NCBI GenBank assembly: GCA_021824175.1
Contig: JAKALP010000036.1
Coordinates: forward strand, 1-51,867
Direction of reading: 5' to 3'
Source of the DNA: Deltaproteobacteria bacterium
GTDB taxonomy: Bacteria > Desulfobacterota > Desulfobacteria > Desulfobacterales > Desulfosarcinaceae
Length of the DNA stretch: 51,867 bases
The position numbers were made by a program, and so were the translations under genes. The notes beneath the pieces are model-generated. The model saw only the letters and a list, made by a program, of their open reading frames with translations. It did no database searches and had not been told where the DNA came from. Shown piece after piece: positions 23,537 to 42,072 of the stretch; position 1 is the stretch's first letter, and every line of letters begins with the position of its first letter.

Positions 23537-23571
23537 CCGTTTGCCCGTTTCCCGTTGGCCCGTTTGCCCGT
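23537..23571. repeat. Octamer array A1 (CCCGTTTG type)
   Basis: Tandem units CCGTTTGC, CCGTTTC (7 bp), CCGTTGGC and CCGTTTGC occur in the hisS-aspS spacer. The same unit family is found in three spacers of the moeA/rtcB operon. Confidence 0.75.
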
Positions 23572-23640
23572 CAAACACCATAATGTATCTAATCCAGATG
23601 TTTGATCCCGCCGGGCTTTGGCGGGGTTTGCCCGTTTTAG

Positions 23641-28487: not shown

Positions 28488-28567
28488 GGGCAATGGGGCA
28501 AAGGCACAAAGGGACTGAGGGACTGAGGCACAAAGGCACAAAGGGGCTGAGGGACTAAGGGACTGAG
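28488..28567. repeat. Octamer array B (ten perfect 8-bp steps)
   Basis: Units in order: GGGCAATG, GGGCAAAG, GCACAAAG, GGACTGAG, GGACTGAG, GCACAAAG, GCACAAAG, GGGCTGAG, GGACTAAG, GGACTGAG. The register never slips. A single inverted unit CTTTGTGC follows at about 28582. It sits in the 382-bp spacer (28473-28854) between the HDAC-like gene and epmA; the rest of that spacer holds the half repeat at 28777 and no gene. Confidence 0.8.
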
Positions 28568-28776
28568 AAGCAGTCTTCGTGGCTTTGTGCGAGATTTAAG
28601 GGAAGCGGAAGATTCCAATATACTGCTTATGTTTTCAACCACACGAGCAAGTGCTCCCTCTCCCCAAGGGGAGAGAGTCGCGGTGAAGGGCCGCCCCTCC
28701 TTTTAAAGCTCTATCGGATTTTTCTCCACCCCTAAATATTGATTAGCCCGTAACAAGTAGTACAGCGACTGTTAAC

Positions 28777-35219: not shown

Positions 35220-36653
35220 CTATCCCTTGACCACCGCGATGGGCCGCAGCCGGGCCACCTTTTTAGATATTCCCGCCCCATGCACTACTTCCACAACTTG
35301 GGAAACATCTTTGTAGGCTTCGGGCATCTCCTCGGCCAGGGTGCCGCGGCCGGTCCAGCGCACCAAAACTCCCTGATCTTCCAGCTCGCGGTGAATGGCG
35401 CGGCCCTTGGCGCGCTTCATGGCGGCTTTGCGACTGAGGACACGGCCGGCACCGTGGCAGGTGGAGCCAAAGGTTTCCAACATGGCCTGATCCGTGCCCA
35501 CCAGCACATAAGAAGCGGTGCCCATGTCACCGGGAATTAAAATCGGCTGACCGGTGTCACGATAATCATGGCTCAGGGCCGGATGACCGGGGCCAAAGGC
35601 GCGCGTGGCGCCCTTGCGGTGGACGCACACCCATTTCTTTTGGCCATCCACCAGATGTTCTTCTTTTTTGGCGATGTTGTGGCACACATCATAGACCAAG
35701 CGCATATTCAGGGATTTGGGGCTGATGCGCAATGTCTCTTCAAATACTTCCCGGCAACGATGTAAAAGGATTTGCCGGTTGGCCCAGGCATAATTGGCGG
35801 CGCACGCCATGGCACGCAGATAGCGTTGGCCATGCTCGGACTGGATATAGGCGCAGGATAATTGGCGGTCCGGCAATTCGATTCCCAGGGTGCGCACATG
35901 TTTGCTCATGCTGGCTAGAAAATCATCGCATACCTGGTATCCCAAACCCCGCGAGCCGCTGTGCAGCAGGACGGTTACCTGGCCTTGGCGCAGGCCAAAT
36001 ACTTCGGCGGCTTCGGGTAGAAATATCTCTTCCACCACGCCCACTTCCACAAAATGGTTGCCCGAGCCCAAGGTACCCAATTGGTTGCGGCCCCGTTCCA
36101 GGGCGCGCTGGCTGATGACTTCCGGGTCGGCATGCTCCAGACAGCCGCCATCCTCGGTGTGATCGATATCTTCATCCAGGCCAAAGCCCTGGTCCACGGC
36201 CCATTGACTGCCCTGGGACAGCACTTTGCGTTCATCCTTGGGGGAGAGCTTCACCGACCCGGTGGAACCCACGCCCGAGGGCACGTGATGGTAGAGAGCA
36301 TCCACAATGTCGCGCACCCGGCCCTGAATCTCTTCGAATTGGAGATCCGTGGCCGCCAGGCGCACGCCGCAGTTGATGTCGTAGCCCACGCCCCCCGGCG
36401 AAACCACGCCGCTCTCCCAATCAAAGGCCGCCACGCCGCCGATGGGAAAGCCATAACCCCAATGTATATCAGGCATGGCCAGGGAAGCTCGAATGATGCC
36501 GGGCAACGTGGCCACATTGGCCACCTGGTTGACGGCCTCTTCTTCCCGGAGTTGATCCAGCATGCGCGCGCTGGTGAACACAATGCCAGGCACGCGCATC
36601 AGGCCGGACTGCTCCACTTGCCAGCGGTAGTCGTCAATGCGTTTGATTTGCAT
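35220..36653 (-). CDS. rtcB: tRNA-splicing/RNA repair ligase RtcB
   Basis: The 477-residue protein is a full-length RtcB: GYDINCGVRL (Mn ligand Cys), GSGNHFVEV and HSGSRGLG (Mn-binding His/Asp), and the guanylylation histidine in STCHGAGRVLSR. It joins 2',3'-cyclic phosphate and 5'-OH RNA ends through a GMP intermediate. ATG 36653 is fixed by AAGGAGGA; upstream codons lie in an octamer array and are not part of the gene. Archease is the next gene upstream, as often seen. Confidence 0.95.
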   Translation of the reverse strand: MQIKRIDDYRWQVEQSGLMRVPGIVFTSARMLDQLREEEAVNQVANVATLPGIIRASLAMPDIHWGYGFPIGGVAAFDWESGVVSPGGVGYDINCGVRLAATDLQFEEIQGRVRDIVDALYHHVPSGVGSTGSVKLSPKDERKVLSQGSQWAVDQGFGLDEDIDHTEDGGCLEHADPEVISQRALERGRNQLGTLGSGNHFVEVGVVEEIFLPEAAEVFGLRQGQVTVLLHSGSRGLGYQVCDDFLASMSKHVRTLGIELPDRQLSCAYIQSEHGQRYLRAMACAANYAWANRQILLHRCREVFEETLRISPKSLNMRLVYDVCHNIAKKEEHLVDGQKKWVCVHRKGATRAFGPGHPALSHDYRDTGQPILIPGDMGTASYVLVGTDQAMLETFGSTCHGAGRVLSRKAAMKRAKGRAIHRELEDQGVLVRWTGRGTLAEEMPEAYKDVSQVVEVVHGAGISKKVARLRPIAVVKG

Positions 36654-36675
36654 GGTTCCTCCTTCTGTTCGTGTG

Positions 36676-36800
36676 CCCGTTTGCCCGTGTGCCGTTGGCC
36701 CGTGTGCCCGTGAGCCCATTCGTCGGTTTGCCGGTTCGGCGATTAGGTGAAGTAATGCTAACGGGTTCACTCCCGCCCCAACGGGCCAACGGGCTAACGG
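36676..36800. repeat. Octamer array A2 with inverted arm (rtcB-archease spacer)
   Basis: Left arm 36676-36722: CCCGTTTG, CCCGTGTG, CCGTTGG, CCCGTGTG, CCCGTGAG, CCCATTCG. Right arm 36759-36800: AACGGGTT, then AACGGGCC, AACGGGCT, AACGG. The right arm is inverted relative to the left, so a transcript could fold into a hairpin. It ends at the archease stop. Confidence 0.75.
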
Positions 36801-37241
36801 TCAAACATCAAACACCACCCGCGCCCGCCAACTCCCATCTGCTTGTGACCCCACGTCGATCTGATGATAGGTGACCGCCTTGATCTCCTTGTTGATTTGA
36901 TGGATCTGCGGCGAAAAGTCTTCCGATGTTACCAGGGCCTGTAATCTGGTTGGGGTTAACGACTCGATCTCGATGCGGTTGATAATTTGCTGGGCGCCGT
37001 GCCAGAAGTAAAGCAATTCCCGCAGCCAGTTGATCATCAGGTCGGGCCAATCTTCGCCTTCGATTTCTATCCGGTGCTGATGGCCTGACTCGGACGGTGG
37101 TTCTTCGCTGGTAACCATGACCTCAAAAAGCGCTTTGCCGGCGTTGGCGAACAGGGCTCTTTCATTCACGCCAAAAATTTCCATGCCCAAGTCGGCGGTA
37201 TGATCGAATAGTCGAAAATATGGTTTCGACTCCTGTTTCAA
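36801..37241 (-). CDS. Archease, RtcB cofactor
   Basis: The 146-residue protein has the archease fold: FDHTADLGMEIFG at the N-terminus with the conserved His-x-Ala-Asp, GEDWPDLMINWLRELLY in the middle, and a C-terminal KEIKAVTYHQIDV strand. Archease speeds the guanylylation of RtcB and widens its NTP use. It starts at TTG 37241, sharing TTGA with the end of moeA-PBP, so translation is coupled. It is separated from rtcB by octamer array A2. Confidence 0.92.
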   Translation of the reverse strand: MKQESKPYFRLFDHTADLGMEIFGVNERALFANAGKALFEVMVTSEEPPSESGHQHRIEIEGEDWPDLMINWLRELLYFWHGAQQIINRIEIESLTPTRLQALVTSEDFSPQIHQINKEIKAVTYHQIDVGSQADGSWRARVVFDV

Positions 37242-39163
37242 AGCAGTACTTCCCCCGTTCTTTCCGTATGATATCCACCCAACTCTTCCACGCGCTGTTT
37301 AAAGCGGCGGCTGCGGATCACGGACAGCAGCTCCTGGATGGAAGCGGTTTCGAAGTAGACATCCGGGATCAGCAGGTCATACTGCTCAGTGACCACGGGA
37401 ATGAAGTCGAGGCTCAGGGCCTTGGCCGCCGAGAAAATACCCAGCCCCACATCGGCCGCGCCGCTGAGCACGGCGGCGGCCACGGCCATATGGGTAAACT
37501 CTTCATTGGTATAACCGGCAATGCGTTGGGCTGCGATGCCCAGCTGTCTGAGGCGGAAATCGAGCAGGATTCGAGTGCCAGACCCACCCTGGCGGTTGAT
37601 CAAGGTCACATCTGCGCGCGCCAGGTCTTCGATACCCTTGATATTTTTAGGGTTGCCGGAAAGCACCATCAAGCCTTGATCGCGCATCACCAGGTGCACC
37701 AGACGGACCCGTGTTTCAGGCAAATACTTCCGGATGTAAGAGAGATTATAACTACCGTCCTGTTCATCCAGTAAATGGGTACCGGCCAGATGACATACCC
37801 CGCGCTTGACCGCCATCAGGCCGCCCATGCTGCCCACATGGCTGGATGACAGACTCACGCGGGAGTGTTGGGCGCGCAGCTCGTCGGCGAGCAGGTCCAA
37901 GGTGTTGTCATGGCTGCCAACCACGACCAGGGTTTGCTCAATGACCTGCAGGGGCCTCAACAGCTCGGCGGCCACCGGCTGGCCTTCGGCCACCCCTTCC
38001 ACATCGGCCGGGATGCGGATGATACCATCGGCTTCAGTGATGCTGGTGATCTGGCCCGCGCCGCGCGGCAAGCTGGTGGCCACCAGGCGGTCGCCCACGC
38101 GGCCGATCTTGACGCGTACAAACTCTTCGGTGCCCAGCTTGGAAGCAATTTTGCGCGTGGGCAGCACATCCACCACCGGACGTTGCAGCGGCGGTTGGCC
38201 CAGCCAGGCAGCGACCAGAGGCTGGACCAACTGTTCAAAGGCCATGATGGTCGACACGGGGTAGCCGGGCATACCGAAGACCGGGGTTGTGCCCACCCGG
38301 CCGACTATGGTGGGTTTGCCGGGCATCATGGTCACACCGTGCACCAGAACCTCTCCGTGTTCTTCGATAACGGCCCGGGCGAAATCTTCGGACCCGGCCG
38401 ATGATCCGCCCACGATCATCACCAGATCAACACCGGACTCAACCGCTGAGCCAAGCCGTCGGCCGATGGCTTGCAGATCATCCCCCAAAGGCGCTAGCCG
38501 CTCAAAGCAGCCGCCGGCGGACTCCAGCAGTTTGCCCAAGACATAGGCGTTGGATTCGATGATCCGGCCAGGGGTCAATTGTGCCAATGATTCAGTGGAC
38601 CAATCCAGCAGCTCTGAACCGGTAGGCAGAATGGCGGCTCTGGGCCTGCGAAGCACCTTCACACTGAACTGTCCGGCCGCCAGCAAGGCCCCCACGCAAT
38701 AGGGTGTGATCTGATGCTGCCTGGCAAACAGCATTTCGGTGGCCACGATGTCTTCGCCCATTTTGCGTACATGCTGCCAGGGAAAGGCCGGCGCTTCGAT
38801 CTGGACACTGCCGGCATCCAGAACCTGTACGTTTTCAATTATGATCACGGCGTCGGTGTCCGGCGGCAGCACATGGCCGGTGTTTACGAAAAATGCTTCC
38901 TGGCCCACGCACAATTGCCTGGGTTTGGCCGAATGGGCGCCGAATGTCGCTTGGGCTTTGACCGCGATGCCATCCATGGCCGCGGCGTGAAAATGGGGTG
39001 ACGAGAGGCGCGCGGCCACTGGTTCGGCCAGCACCCGGCCCACAGCTTCCGGCGTGGAGATCTCTTCTACTTCCAATGATTTCCCGCCGAATGCCTCCAG
39101 CACCACGCGCCGGGCTTCATCCAGGGGTTTCATGTTGAGGTAGATGTTACGCTTTTGGGACAT
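37238..39163 (-). CDS. moeA: MoeA molybdopterin molybdotransferase fused to a PBP-like domain
   Basis: The 641-residue protein has an N-terminal MoeA (about 1-400): AAAMDGIAV, TGSELLD, VMIVGGSSAGSEDF and HGVTMMPGKPT, ending with FVRVKIGRVGD. MoeA inserts molybdate (or tungstate) into MPT-AMP. The C-terminal ~220 residues form a type 2 periplasmic-binding-protein-like domain (GSHDNTLDLLADEL ... NRQGGSGTRILLDFRLRQLGI ... YTNEEFTHMAVAAAVLSG), as in ModA/TupA- or LysR-like effector domains, but without a signal peptide. This arrangement recurs in anaerobes and archaea. It is followed by archease with overlapping codons. Confidence 0.88.
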   Translation of the reverse strand: MSQKRNIYLNMKPLDEARRVVLEAFGGKSLEVEEISTPEAVGRVLAEPVAARLSSPHFHAAAMDGIAVKAQATFGAHSAKPRQLCVGQEAFFVNTGHVLPPDTDAVIIIENVQVLDAGSVQIEAPAFPWQHVRKMGEDIVATEMLFARQHQITPYCVGALLAAGQFSVKVLRRPRAAILPTGSELLDWSTESLAQLTPGRIIESNAYVLGKLLESAGGCFERLAPLGDDLQAIGRRLGSAVESGVDLVMIVGGSSAGSEDFARAVIEEHGEVLVHGVTMMPGKPTIVGRVGTTPVFGMPGYPVSTIMAFEQLVQPLVAAWLGQPPLQRPVVDVLPTRKIASKLGTEEFVRVKIGRVGDRLVATSLPRGAGQITSITEADGIIRIPADVEGVAEGQPVAAELLRPLQVIEQTLVVVGSHDNTLDLLADELRAQHSRVSLSSSHVGSMGGLMAVKRGVCHLAGTHLLDEQDGSYNLSYIRKYLPETRVRLVHLVMRDQGLMVLSGNPKNIKGIEDLARADVTLINRQGGSGTRILLDFRLRQLGIAAQRIAGYTNEEFTHMAVAAAVLSGAADVGLGIFSAAKALSLDFIPVVTEQYDLLIPDVYFETASIQELLSVIRSRRFKQRVEELGGYHTERTGEVLL

Positions 39164-39179
39164 GAGTGGTTCCTTGTTT

Positions 39180-39445
39180 CTCGTTTACCCGTTAGCCCGT
39201 TGGCCCGCGAGCCCGTTTGCCCGTTTACGGCATGATGTTTAATGCTACCAATTGAACGAGAGCTCATGGGCTCCTGATCGAAGTTATTCCCACGGGTCGA
39301 TTGGGGGAACGCCAATCAATACGACTCTTAAACGGCCAACTCCATCTATTCGTTTCGCTATCAACGGGCTCACGGGCAAACAGGCAAACGGGCACACGGG
39401 CCAACGGGCCAACGGGCCAACGGGCTAACGGGCCAACGCCCCAAC
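39180..39445. repeat. Octamer array A3 with two inverted arms (moeA-moeA spacer)
   Basis: Left arm 39180-39227: CTCGTTTA, CCCGTTAG, CCCGTTGG, CCCGCGAG, CCCGTTTG, CCCGTTTA. Right arm 39363-39442: AACGGGCT, CACGGGCA, AACAGGCA, AACGGGCA, CACGGGCC, AACGGGCC, AACGGGCC, AACGGGCT, AACGGGCC, AACGCCCC. The arms are inverted and separated by about 135 bp of unrelated sequence, which contains no gene. A transcript would form a stem over 40 bp. Confidence 0.85.
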
Positions 39446-40669
39446 CTAAAACAACCAAACCTCCACCTCCGCCCCCTGCTCCACCCCTTCGCTGTTCTTT
39501 GCGATGGCAATCATTCCATCGGCTTCAACCATGGTGCGAATCAAGCCCGAGGCGCCCAGCACCGGTTCGGCCCAGGTCTGGCCGTTTCGTTCCGTCAGGC
39601 GCACCCGCACAAAATCCACCCGTCCCTGGGCCGAAGCCAGGTTGCGGCTCAGGCGGGCGCTCACCCATACCGGCCGATCGTATTGCCAGCCGGCGATGTG
39701 AGCCAGAAAAGGGCGCACCAATACCATAAACACCACCATGGCGGATGTCACATGGCCGGGCAGGCCCCAAAAGGGCTTGGCACCGCATTGGGCCAGAATC
39801 GTGGGTTTGCCGGGGCTGATGGAGACGCCGTGCACCAAAATCTGGCTTTGGGGTAGGGATGATAGCACTTCGACCGTCAGATCGCGGGTGCCCACCGAAC
39901 TGCCGCCCGAGACCAGTACCATATCGGTTTCGGTTAAAGCGCGGTTGCAAGCGGCCAACAGTTCTTCAAACCGATCTTTTACTATGCCGTACAAAAAAGG
40001 CTGCCCGCCAACCTGTTGCAACAGGGCGGCCAAGGTGTGGGCATTCACATCCCGCACCTGACCCGGCGCAGGCTCAGTCTCCACCGGCACCACTTCATCG
40101 CCGGAAGAGATGATCCCCACCCGTGGACGTTTAAATACTTGGACCAAGGAGGCGCCACAGGCCGCCAGCAGCCCCATCTCCTGGGGCCTGAGGCGGATAC
40201 CGGCGGGCAACAAGGTTTGACCATGGGTTGCATCCTCATCTTTGGCCACCACATGCTGGCCGGGAGCCACGCTGCGATAGACCTCTATGGTGCGCGCATC
40301 CAGCTGACCCGCATGCTCCACCATCACCACACTGTCAGCGCCTGGCGGCAGCATGCCGCCCTTTTCAATGCGGGACGCCAGCCCCGGCCCCACCTCATGA
40401 TCCGGCTCCTGCCCCATGCCGACAGCCCCCACAATGGTTAGATAGGCGGGATTGGCTTCGCTGGCCCCGAAAGTGGAAGCGGCCGCCACGGCATAGCCAT
40501 CCATGGTGGCACGGTCAAAACCGGGGATGTCGGCCGGGGCTTTGAAATCCAGCGCCAATACCCGGCCCAGGGCTTCGCTCAAGTTAATCTGCTCACTGCC
40601 CACGGTGCTGAAGCCGGAGCGCAAAGCCAGCACTGCATCGATATCCATGACCTTAAAAAAATCTTGCAT
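39446..40669 (-). CDS. moeA: Molybdopterin molybdotransferase MoeA
   Basis: The 407-residue protein is a complete MoeA: FDRATMDGYAV near residue 50, PGADSVVMVEHA, ISSGDEVVPVE, VLVSGGSSVGTRDL and HGVSISPGKPT, with a C-terminal domain IV FVRVRLTERNG. It ligates the metal to adenylylated molybdopterin. It is the first gene of the minus-strand cluster and the second MoeA in it, separated from the fused version by array A3. Two paralogues may load different metals (Mo and W) or serve different cofactor forms. Confidence 0.93.
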   Translation of the reverse strand: MQDFFKVMDIDAVLALRSGFSTVGSEQINLSEALGRVLALDFKAPADIPGFDRATMDGYAVAAASTFGASEANPAYLTIVGAVGMGQEPDHEVGPGLASRIEKGGMLPPGADSVVMVEHAGQLDARTIEVYRSVAPGQHVVAKDEDATHGQTLLPAGIRLRPQEMGLLAACGASLVQVFKRPRVGIISSGDEVVPVETEPAPGQVRDVNAHTLAALLQQVGGQPFLYGIVKDRFEELLAACNRALTETDMVLVSGGSSVGTRDLTVEVLSSLPQSQILVHGVSISPGKPTILAQCGAKPFWGLPGHVTSAMVVFMVLVRPFLAHIAGWQYDRPVWVSARLSRNLASAQGRVDFVRVRLTERNGQTWAEPVLGASGLIRTMVEADGMIAIAKNSEGVEQGAEVEVWLF

Positions 40670-40844: not shown

Positions 40845-41378
40845 ATGCCCATTGCAACCGACAACGAACAGGCCTTCTTGCTGGAGCTGTATAAAATGAC
40901 CAGCGGGGACACCAACGCCAAAAGATCGATGCATGACGTCGGAGCGGCCATCGGCCTGGACAAAGTTCAATCCGGCAAGATGGCGGAAGAGATCATCGGC
41001 AAAGGCTGGGCTGAGATCAAGACCTTGTCGGGCGGCATCGGTATCACCGCCGATGGAATTGAAGCGGCCCAGCAGGCGGGCGCCGCGCCGGTCGGAGCCA
41101 GCGGCTTGAAATTGAGCGCGGGGCCTGTTCTCTCTACCGAAGATCGTCAAACCATTGGAAAAATCCTGGTGGACATCAAACAAGCCGCGGCCGCAATGAA
41201 ATCCGATTATGCCCGGTTGGAAGAAATGGTCTTGGACCTTAAAACCATTGAAGTGCAATTACTTTCGCCCAAGCCCAAAACCGCCGTGATTAAAGAACTC
41301 CTGCGCTCTTTGTCGGGCAACTTTGAACAAGCCGGAGCAAAAGAAATCGCCGGACAGTTGAAAGGGGCAATTGGCTGA
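40845..41378 (+). CDS. Winged-helix-like hypothetical protein
   Basis: A 177-residue protein whose first ~75 residues (MHDVGAAIGLDKVQSGKMAEEIIGKGWAEIKTLSGGIGITADGIEAAQ) look like a winged-helix DNA-binding fold, followed by a helical region rich in Ala and Lys (IGKILVDIKQAAAAMKSDYARLEEMVLDLKTIE) that could dimerise. AAAAAGGA precedes ATG 40845. It is divergent from the moeA cluster. No known family is recognised. It is followed by the DUF3786-like gene with array C in between. Confidence 0.7.
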   Translation: MPIATDNEQAFLLELYKMTSGDTNAKRSMHDVGAAIGLDKVQSGKMAEEIIGKGWAEIKTLSGGIGITADGIEAAQQAGAAPVGASGLKLSAGPVLSTEDRQTIGKILVDIKQAAAAMKSDYARLEEMVLDLKTIEVQLLSPKPKTAVIKELLRSLSGNFEQAGAKEIAGQLKGAIG

Positions 41379-41468
41379 TTGGTTATTTGTTTTGAAAGCT
41401 ATGGAAACCACTAAACCACTCAACCAATCAACCAATCAACGAATCAACGAATCAACGAAGAAACAAAC
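41370..41468. repeat. Octamer array C with inverted arm
   Basis: Main arm 41405-41468: AAACCACT twice, CAACCAAT twice, CAACGAAT twice, CAACGAAG, AAACAAAC, in exact 8-bp register. Inverted arm 41370-41393: ATTGGCTG, ATTGGTTA, TTTGTTTT. The inverted arm overlaps the 3' end of the preceding gene. Confidence 0.8.
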
Positions 41469-41469
41469 C

Positions 41470-42072
41470 ATGGCCAGCAACTACGCCACCATCATCCAAG
41501 ATAACTTAACCAAACTCTTCGCATGCGATCTCCACGAACGCGCCGGAGCACTACCGGCCCAGATAGAAGGCCAAACCCTTAATTTTAAGGCCTTCGGCAC
41601 CCCATGTCGCCTCAGCGCTGAAGAACTGACTCTGGACGGTCGCAAAGAGGACGGTCCCAGGGGCATCATCACTTCGCTCTATGCGTTGCACGCCGCCGGA
41701 GAAGAGATGGTCCTGGAGCCGTTTCAATCTTTCAAAGAGATTCCCAACAGTGCGCCTTATGTGGGCGCTTTTGCCAACCGCACCGAACAAGCCCTGGTGC
41801 CCGCCGTAATGCGTCTGAAGAACAGCCTCTCCGCCATCATCTCCCGGCTGGACGGCGGCAACGCCCCGGCTTCGGTGAGCGGCGACATCGCCTTTGTCGT
41901 GCGCCCTCTGCCCAAAATAGCTCTCTGCTACGTCTGCTACCTGCCCGACGAAGATTTTCCGGCCGGCGTCACCTGCCTTTACTCCCGCAATGCCCATCGA
42001 TTCCTGCCCACCGATGCCCTGGCGGATGTGGGCGAGTATACCAGCAAGACCATTCTGGCGATAATGGGATAA
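41470..42072 (+). CDS. DUF3786-like protein
   Basis: The 200-residue protein resembles the DUF3786 family of anaerobic bacteria and archaea: YATIIQDNLTKLFACDLHERA, a central LYALHAAG with EPFQSFKEIPNSAPYVGAFAN and a cysteine-containing ALCYVCYLPDEDFPAG before the end. Function is unknown; the family often occurs near corrinoid or Mo/W genes. ATG 41470 is taken, directly after array C; the frame is open back to a TTG at 41371, but that would translate the repeat. Confidence 0.65.
   Translation: MASNYATIIQDNLTKLFACDLHERAGALPAQIEGQTLNFKAFGTPCRLSAEELTLDGRKEDGPRGIITSLYALHAAGEEMVLEPFQSFKEIPNSAPYVGAFANRTEQALVPAVMRLKNSLSAIISRLDGGNAPASVSGDIAFVVRPLPKIALCYVCYLPDEDFPAGVTCLYSRNAHRFLPTDALADVGEYTSKTILAIMG

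Follow-up and report, generated by a model that had tools for sequence, protein, structure and literature searches.

The window, by which we refer to the whole stretch of 51,867 nucleotides that was analyzed, harbors two minus-strand moeA-type genes lying on either side of a spacer of 282 bp, which is occupied by two arrays of short tandem units and the core that they enclose. The genes and the parts of the spacer are given below in coordinate order.

37238..39163, minus strand: the downstream moeA-type gene, which carries a PBP-like domain (Pfam MoeA_N, MoCF_biosynth, MoeA_C)
39176..39226, no strand: family A arm, 5–6 units of the outer-to-inner form CCCGTTNG, about 12 bp from the start codon (39163) of the downstream gene
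39227..39361, no strand: element core of 135 bp, with no room for an S23p gene and no Rfam match
39362..39447, no strand: inverted family A arm (CNAACGGG), about 10 units, abutting the stop codon of the upstream gene (39446–39448)
39446..40669, minus strand: moeA-type gene, upstream of the element (Pfam MoeA_N, MoCF_biosynth, MoeA_C)

Read in the order of the mRNA, the stop codon of one gene is followed by an array of about 10 CCCGTTNG-type units, the 135 bp core, a complementary array of 5–6 units and the start codon of the next gene. Folding of the spacer as RNA yielded −138.7 kcal/mol versus a mean of −96.9 for shuffled sequences (z −8.4), and 0 of 200 shuffles were as low. An earlier note on this DNA had described two inverted, non-coding period-8 arms whose transcript would form a long hairpin, and had proposed comparison with shuffled sequence as a refutation test for the inversion; the arms are real, the fold bears the hairpin out and the inversion goes beyond that of shuffled sequence. 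The same note had called the unit strict and homogeneous, which does not hold, as the units vary around CCCG-NNN-G. The sole match of an Rfam search of the window was a tRNA.

Four other spacers of the window carry arrays, represented by the following features.

23537..23571, no strand: family A array with the inner boundary CCCGTCAAACA, a small dispersed core lying next to it
28488..28564, no strand: family B array (AGGCACAA/AGGGACTG), with a partial inverted partner at about 28575–28592 (by eye)
36662..36719, no strand: one arm of a further foldback pair built from family A, some 8 bp away from the start at 36653
36773..36809, no strand: the inverted partner of that arm, likewise family A, overlapping by a few bases the gene end called at 36801
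41366..41391, no strand: degenerate family C left arm (TTGGCTGATTGGTTATTTG), by eye
41401..41471, no strand: family C arm (CAACSAAT), reaching the start codon of the next gene

These spacers had been taken to hold octamers unrelated from locus to locus. Two of them (23537 and 36662–36809) share family A with the moeA spacer, and the remaining two belong to families B and C, both of which recur throughout the genome. The small dispersed core, CAAACACC...TGTTTGATCCCGCC, was observed after family A arrays in the window (23571–23640) and at L032, L033, L097 and L106, with its start only at L035; where CCCGT units were seen again past this core, they kept the same orientation, unlike the facing pairs described below.

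Families and placement of the period-8 arrays

Scanning of the window together with 400 kb of this genome recovered 24 runs with a period of 8, whereas the other periods from 4 to 25 gave 0–4 runs each, apart from the multiples 16 and 24 with 16 each; shuffled sequence contained none. Under a looser threshold, 852 kb (the window and 40 stretches) yielded 84 period-8 runs, all of them non-coding by the calls of our own rough gene-finding script, although 83% of this sequence was called coding. An equal rate of arrays within genes, which had been named as a second refutation test, was thus not what we found. The sampled contigs of this genome were drawn from a list of array hits, mostly at regular steps within each contig, and one stretch (C15:60001–80000) was known to hold a hit, so that the density of arrays is biased upward; part of the G009 stretches was chosen at known hits.

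Each run was placed in the best fitting of three families defined beforehand (lowest fit 0.60), which distributed the 84 runs into 29 of family A (CCCGTTNG), 26 of family B (AGGCACAA/AGGGACTG) and 29 of family C (ATTSGTTG). The polarity of the runs proved consistent: among same-family neighbors less than 400 bp apart, 5 pairs of A, 8 of B and 6 of C faced each other, none had the opposite order and 7 shared one orientation, and one C–A neighbor pair was likewise facing. Three cases of the opposite order occurred at 400–1500 bp. The outer ends lay within 30 bp of a gene in 61 of the 84 runs (median 10.5 bp), and from the inner ends the median distance to the gene on that side was 204.5 bp.

The 852 kb contain 22 facing pairs, with differing cores of 11–895 bp. 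One core is common to four B pairs as detected by blastn, and a matching flank was found at a fifth B arm. Our gene caller placed zero genes inside the 22 pairs, but at least two ORFs that lie between arms escaped it (S23p at L092 and an HNH ORF at L094). At least two of the pairs contain an ORF; as a group the pairs are MITE-like, being short and ORF-less, with inverted ends and many dispersed copies. The HNH ORF encodes 229 amino acids with HNH and weak SAD/SRA matches, within an A-armed pair (L094:15205–16221), and matches, nearly all of them weak, were observed in 33 of 97 genomes including this one.

Family A is expanded here: its pattern matched this genome 309 times, with overlapping units counted apart, whereas the four highest counts among 59 relatives were 24, 14, 10 and 6. 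Contigs C22 and C23 terminate inside perfect A octamer runs or only a few bases away from them, so these arrays probably break the assembly.

Mirroring of the order of unit variants between the two arms was not found: 1 of 21 pairs reached p<0.05, with a mean z of 0.6. Exact pairing is consequently not shown as selected and we claim no compensatory evolution of the stem; recognition of the unit may be of greater importance than an exact stem.

S23p genes between inverted arms

All three 23S_rRNA_IVP genes of this genome (S23p, PF05635, a four-helix bundle) sit between inverted arms, which belong to family B at L128, to family A at L129 and to a fourth, TTTAAAGTT-like family at L130, whereas 12 of 562 other genes of the genome have such flanks (score >30). 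Families A and B therefore provide ends common to ORF-less copies and to a protein-coding partner, as in the definition of MITEs; no S23p gene with family C arms was found in this genome. In a set of 32 loci (the three above and 29 of relatives), 24 exceeded 95% of a cross-paired null and 1 exceeded 99%, the latter count being low because loci with common arm families inflate this null, and a control with displaced segments is the cleaner one. Two further genomes contributed 20 S23p loci, one of them already within the 32-locus set, and 16 of the 20 scored >30.

The arms were also examined in public genomes, at the best 80 loci by similarity to L128 among the matches listed, a sample that is not random and of which 79 were testable. 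The inverted-arm score was above the 95% null in 65 of these 79 and above the 99% null in 48; the direct-orientation control at the same loci was raised too, with 17 and 11, respectively. A score >30 was reached by 48 of the 79 S23p loci versus 0 of 142 displaced segments, and the best arm period among those 48 was 7 in 34 loci and 8 in 10, a peak that was not found in random segments. The 48 armed loci span Bacteroidota, Planctomycetota, Acidobacteriota, Verrucomicrobiota, Bacillota, Pseudomonadota, candidate phyla and others, and the S23p locus of one Methanophagales archaeon fell just under the 99% null. With all sets pooled, 86 of 130 S23p loci are armed and 44 are below the arm threshold or untestable. 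Within the phylum of this genome, S23p was detected in 110 of 198 sampled genomes at E ≤ 0.001, 104 of them over the family cut-off. In genome G022, three S23p genes lie in a row over about 2.3 kb with a single arm family (L280–L282).

The protein itself is conserved: in ten diverged S23p pairs, pN ranged from 0.09 to 0.28 versus a pS of 0.71–0.86, with synonymous sites at or near saturation, and an eleventh, near-identical pair was uninformative in this respect. At 108 loci, the S23p gene ran with both neighbors in 74, against both in 8 and in a mixed arrangement in 26, a co-directional bias that is expected if S23p is read from the mRNA of the host operon. This bias was no weaker at armless loci (26 of 30) than at armed ones (48 of 78). 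The S23p protein of L128 matches the solved structures 2gsc and 2rld and resembles Avd of diversity-generating retroelements (E 6.7e-9 and 2.3e-7, both below the curated cut-offs); searches with the S23p proteins of L129 and L130 returned no Avd match.

Comparison of loci from different hosts revealed that the arms travel with S23p among close proteins, a conclusion resting on binned counts and on tests of the period. Over the 86 armed elements, arms alike at a score of ≥35 were found in 18 of 26 cross-host pairs with a protein score of ≥360, in 7 of 24 at 320–360, in 9 of 108 at 280–320, in 6 of 869 at 240–280 and in 3 of 2571 below. Among 69 loci with a clear period of 7 or 8, 61 had the same period as their closest protein from a different host (mean 48.9 and maximum 60 under permutation), and a tree of 74 proteins required 8 changes of period versus a shuffled mean of 16.2, with 0 of 200 shuffles as low, although this tree is poorly resolved (105 columns, 38 of 71 inner branches open). 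With all pairs taken together, protein similarity and arm similarity were not significantly correlated by rank (rho 0.072, permuted maximum 0.139). In this pair analysis, L154 and L159 were left out because they duplicate L195 and L280, and L162 and the later G029 loci were counted as different hosts though they belong to one genome. The arm-sharing pairs labelled as different phyla, such as Chitinophaga MAG/Betaproteobacteria and Ruminococcus/Thiohalocapsa, include several metagenome bins that are possibly mis-binned; in the first of them (L191/L209), the arms are alike although pS is 0.71.

Occupied and unoccupied sites in relatives

The spacer between the moeA genes could be read in 27 of 30 loci, nine of which come from readable relatives of the same genus. 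In six of these nine, the spacer measures 17–58 bp and is devoid of arrays. Among the other same-genus relatives, L055 has a spacer of 118 bp with a 9-mer array, L060 one of 151 bp with a family C-type octamer array and L059 one of 201 bp in which no array is visible; in L061, a relative from the same order, inverted arms of yet another octamer were recognized by eye. These spacers indicate that a short spacer gained the A arms and that, in other lineages, it took in different arrays.

A second site is provided by the spacer after gatB, which is syntenic in 11 of 11 same-genus genomes and holds an S23p element in this genome alone. In the relatives, five of the gatB spacers measure about 14–31 bp (by eye), one has a single fourth-family arm, three contain other or longer sequence, and that of L301 carries an ORF-less foldback with hexamer arms (ACTCGT).

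Nature of the elements and alternative readings

We consider it likely that the moeA arrays are the two arms of one foldback element devoid of the S23p ORF, a member of a mobile family related to the intervening sequences (IVSs) of 23S rRNA, in which S23p most likely serves the spread of the element. The analysis supports this through the anatomy of the arrays, their polarity, the location of S23p between arms, the co-inheritance of both, the filled and unfilled sites, the orientation within operons and the conservation of S23p. The element would have a plan of inverted arms of 7–8 nt tandem units around a variable core, and would have entered the gap of a few bases that separates the stop codon of the first moeA from the ribosome-binding site of the second, a position that would have left both genes unbroken. 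In the full elements of this genome, an S23p gene sits inside arms of these families; the moeA element would be an S23p-less copy, its tie to S23p being the shared arm family. In the mRNA of the operon, the arms are predicted to fold, and RNase III may cut them as it does known IVSs. S23p, a relative of Avd, most likely recognizes the units of its own arms and would thereby help the element to spread, a movement that we infer; we know of no mobility enzyme for these elements.

This plan can be set beside other repeat families. Eukaryotic foldback (FB) transposons have long inverted ends made of short tandem repeats around a variable core, whereas the elements described here are bacterial, with units of 7–8 nt and S23p as cargo. 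REP/BIME sequences combine a conserved palindrome with a RAYT transposase, and differ from the present arms, which are tandem arrays of three families. The STRR heptamers of cyanobacteria may resemble these arrays as well.

The statement of the earlier note that no named family has such properties is too strong, since the 23S rRNA IVS/S23p elements and the paired octanucleotides of Geobacter metallireducens come close. The IVS of Coxiella, which has been called selfish, has ends forming a 28-bp stem, is excised by RNase III and carries tandem heptamers before S23p, the function of which is stated as unknown (PMC4990558). Likeness to the IVSs with an S23p ORF (PF05635/TIGR02436) lies in the stem-forming complementary ends, the ORF inside and the tandem heptamers beside it (PMC4990558). 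The elements analyzed here differ in lying between protein genes, in their number and in having several arm families; the moeA element shares the stem from complementary ends (z −8.4) and sits between two moeA genes instead of in a 23S rRNA gene, with no S23p ORF in its core. In Geobacter metallireducens, tandem octanucleotides of several unit classes lie on opposite strands at variable distance and were read as regulator sites (PMC2700814); this arrangement equals that of the present arrays and the unit TWGTTGAY is close to family C, and the available text of that paper states no link to S23p. The G-rich heptameric repeats of Xanthomonas and Nostoc are mostly intergenic and form 70 and 75 inverted pairs in two Xanthomonas genomes; they differ in their period of 7 and in the few pairs of Nostoc, and were interpreted as G-quadruplex elements (PMC4692102). 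We rejected a G-quadruplex reading as a general one for the present arrays, because GGG tracts occur in families A and B and are absent from C. In Beggiatoaceae, short tandem TAACTGA units lie beside start codons and are scattered across phyla; the authors, to whom no mechanism of transfer was evident, proposed a translational role; those arrays differ in being direct, with one inverted exception (PMC4679880).

Tandem repeats of 7 nt have been reported to be in excess in bacterial intergenic DNA, with no settled cause (PMC4679880, PMC4692102), and the finding of S23p between arms of 7–8 nt repeats that are inherited jointly with it ties the puzzle of S23p to that of the intergenic repeats. Parts of the anatomy are thus already published, and in the open full-text literature, a scope outside which most subscription papers fall, we found no publication that connects arrays of this type with intergenic S23p elements. 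A wider extension, which we put forward tentatively and which may well prove wrong, is that these are widespread selfish elements of bacterial and perhaps archaeal operons, in which S23p would recognize the 7–8 nt arms, RNase III would excise the element and a borrowed reverse transcriptase might allow re-entry into DNA, the S23p-less copies accounting for much of the intergenic excess of heptamers and octamers.

Among the alternatives, we regard it as unlikely that the arrays belong to miniature DNA transposons that some ordinary transposase, encoded elsewhere, has moved, with S23p as a passenger. The inverted ends, the short ORF-less copies and the heterogeneous cargo, to which the HNH ORF of L094 belongs, are compatible with such transposons, whereas the change of the arms along with the S23p lineage argues against a mere passenger. 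Target-site duplications, which also bear on this reading, were not found for the elements; at moeA none was seen by eye, in a comparison where the relatives are too diverged to fix the exact ends.

Growth of a distinct octamer in each spacer by replication slippage, with nothing having moved, is quite improbable in our judgment. It is close to the proposal of the earlier note, which favored copying or slippage at each site over transposition, and published work contains a proposal of slippage for 7 nt units (cited in PMC4679880, PMC4692102). Perfect runs of about 13 and about 15 units exist and the unit order differs between arms, as slippage would predict, and slippage probably does change the copy number of the arrays. 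An origin by slippage alone is nevertheless contradicted by the three genome-wide families with one fixed polarity, by the core common to several B elements and by the S23p genes that lie inside the same arms. The sites in relatives point the same way, given that the moeA spacer is short and array-free in six of nine and holds different arrays in two, and that the S23p element after gatB is present in one genome and absent from others.

Still more doubtful is the reading in which the arrays are paired sites bound by a global or DNA-bending regulator, an idea put forward for Geobacter metallireducens, where the same anatomy is in print, with four octanucleotides in tandem, on opposite strands and separated by a variable distance (PMC2700814). 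The lack of a mirrored unit order suits such sites more than it suits a strict stem, but they would leave unexplained why S23p lies between such arms in many phyla, why the arm sequence tracks close S23p kinship and why the insertion falls between a stop codon and a ribosome-binding site.

Domesticated, REP/BIME-like mRNA hairpins for transcript stability or attenuation are the least probable reading and can be given very little weight. The RNA fold is strong, and genes on the same strand flank 44 of 55 spacers with arrays, but they also flank 321 of 461 other spacers; the unit order is not mirrored and the moeA hairpin is absent from six of nine same-genus relatives.

Beside arms of the C type and of the TTTAAAGTT type, we also observed a subterminal motif, GGAATTCTATC or GGAATTCTGTC, at L092:8781, L097:18152 and L042:9306, which resembles the sequence flanking the arms of S23p elements in relatives.
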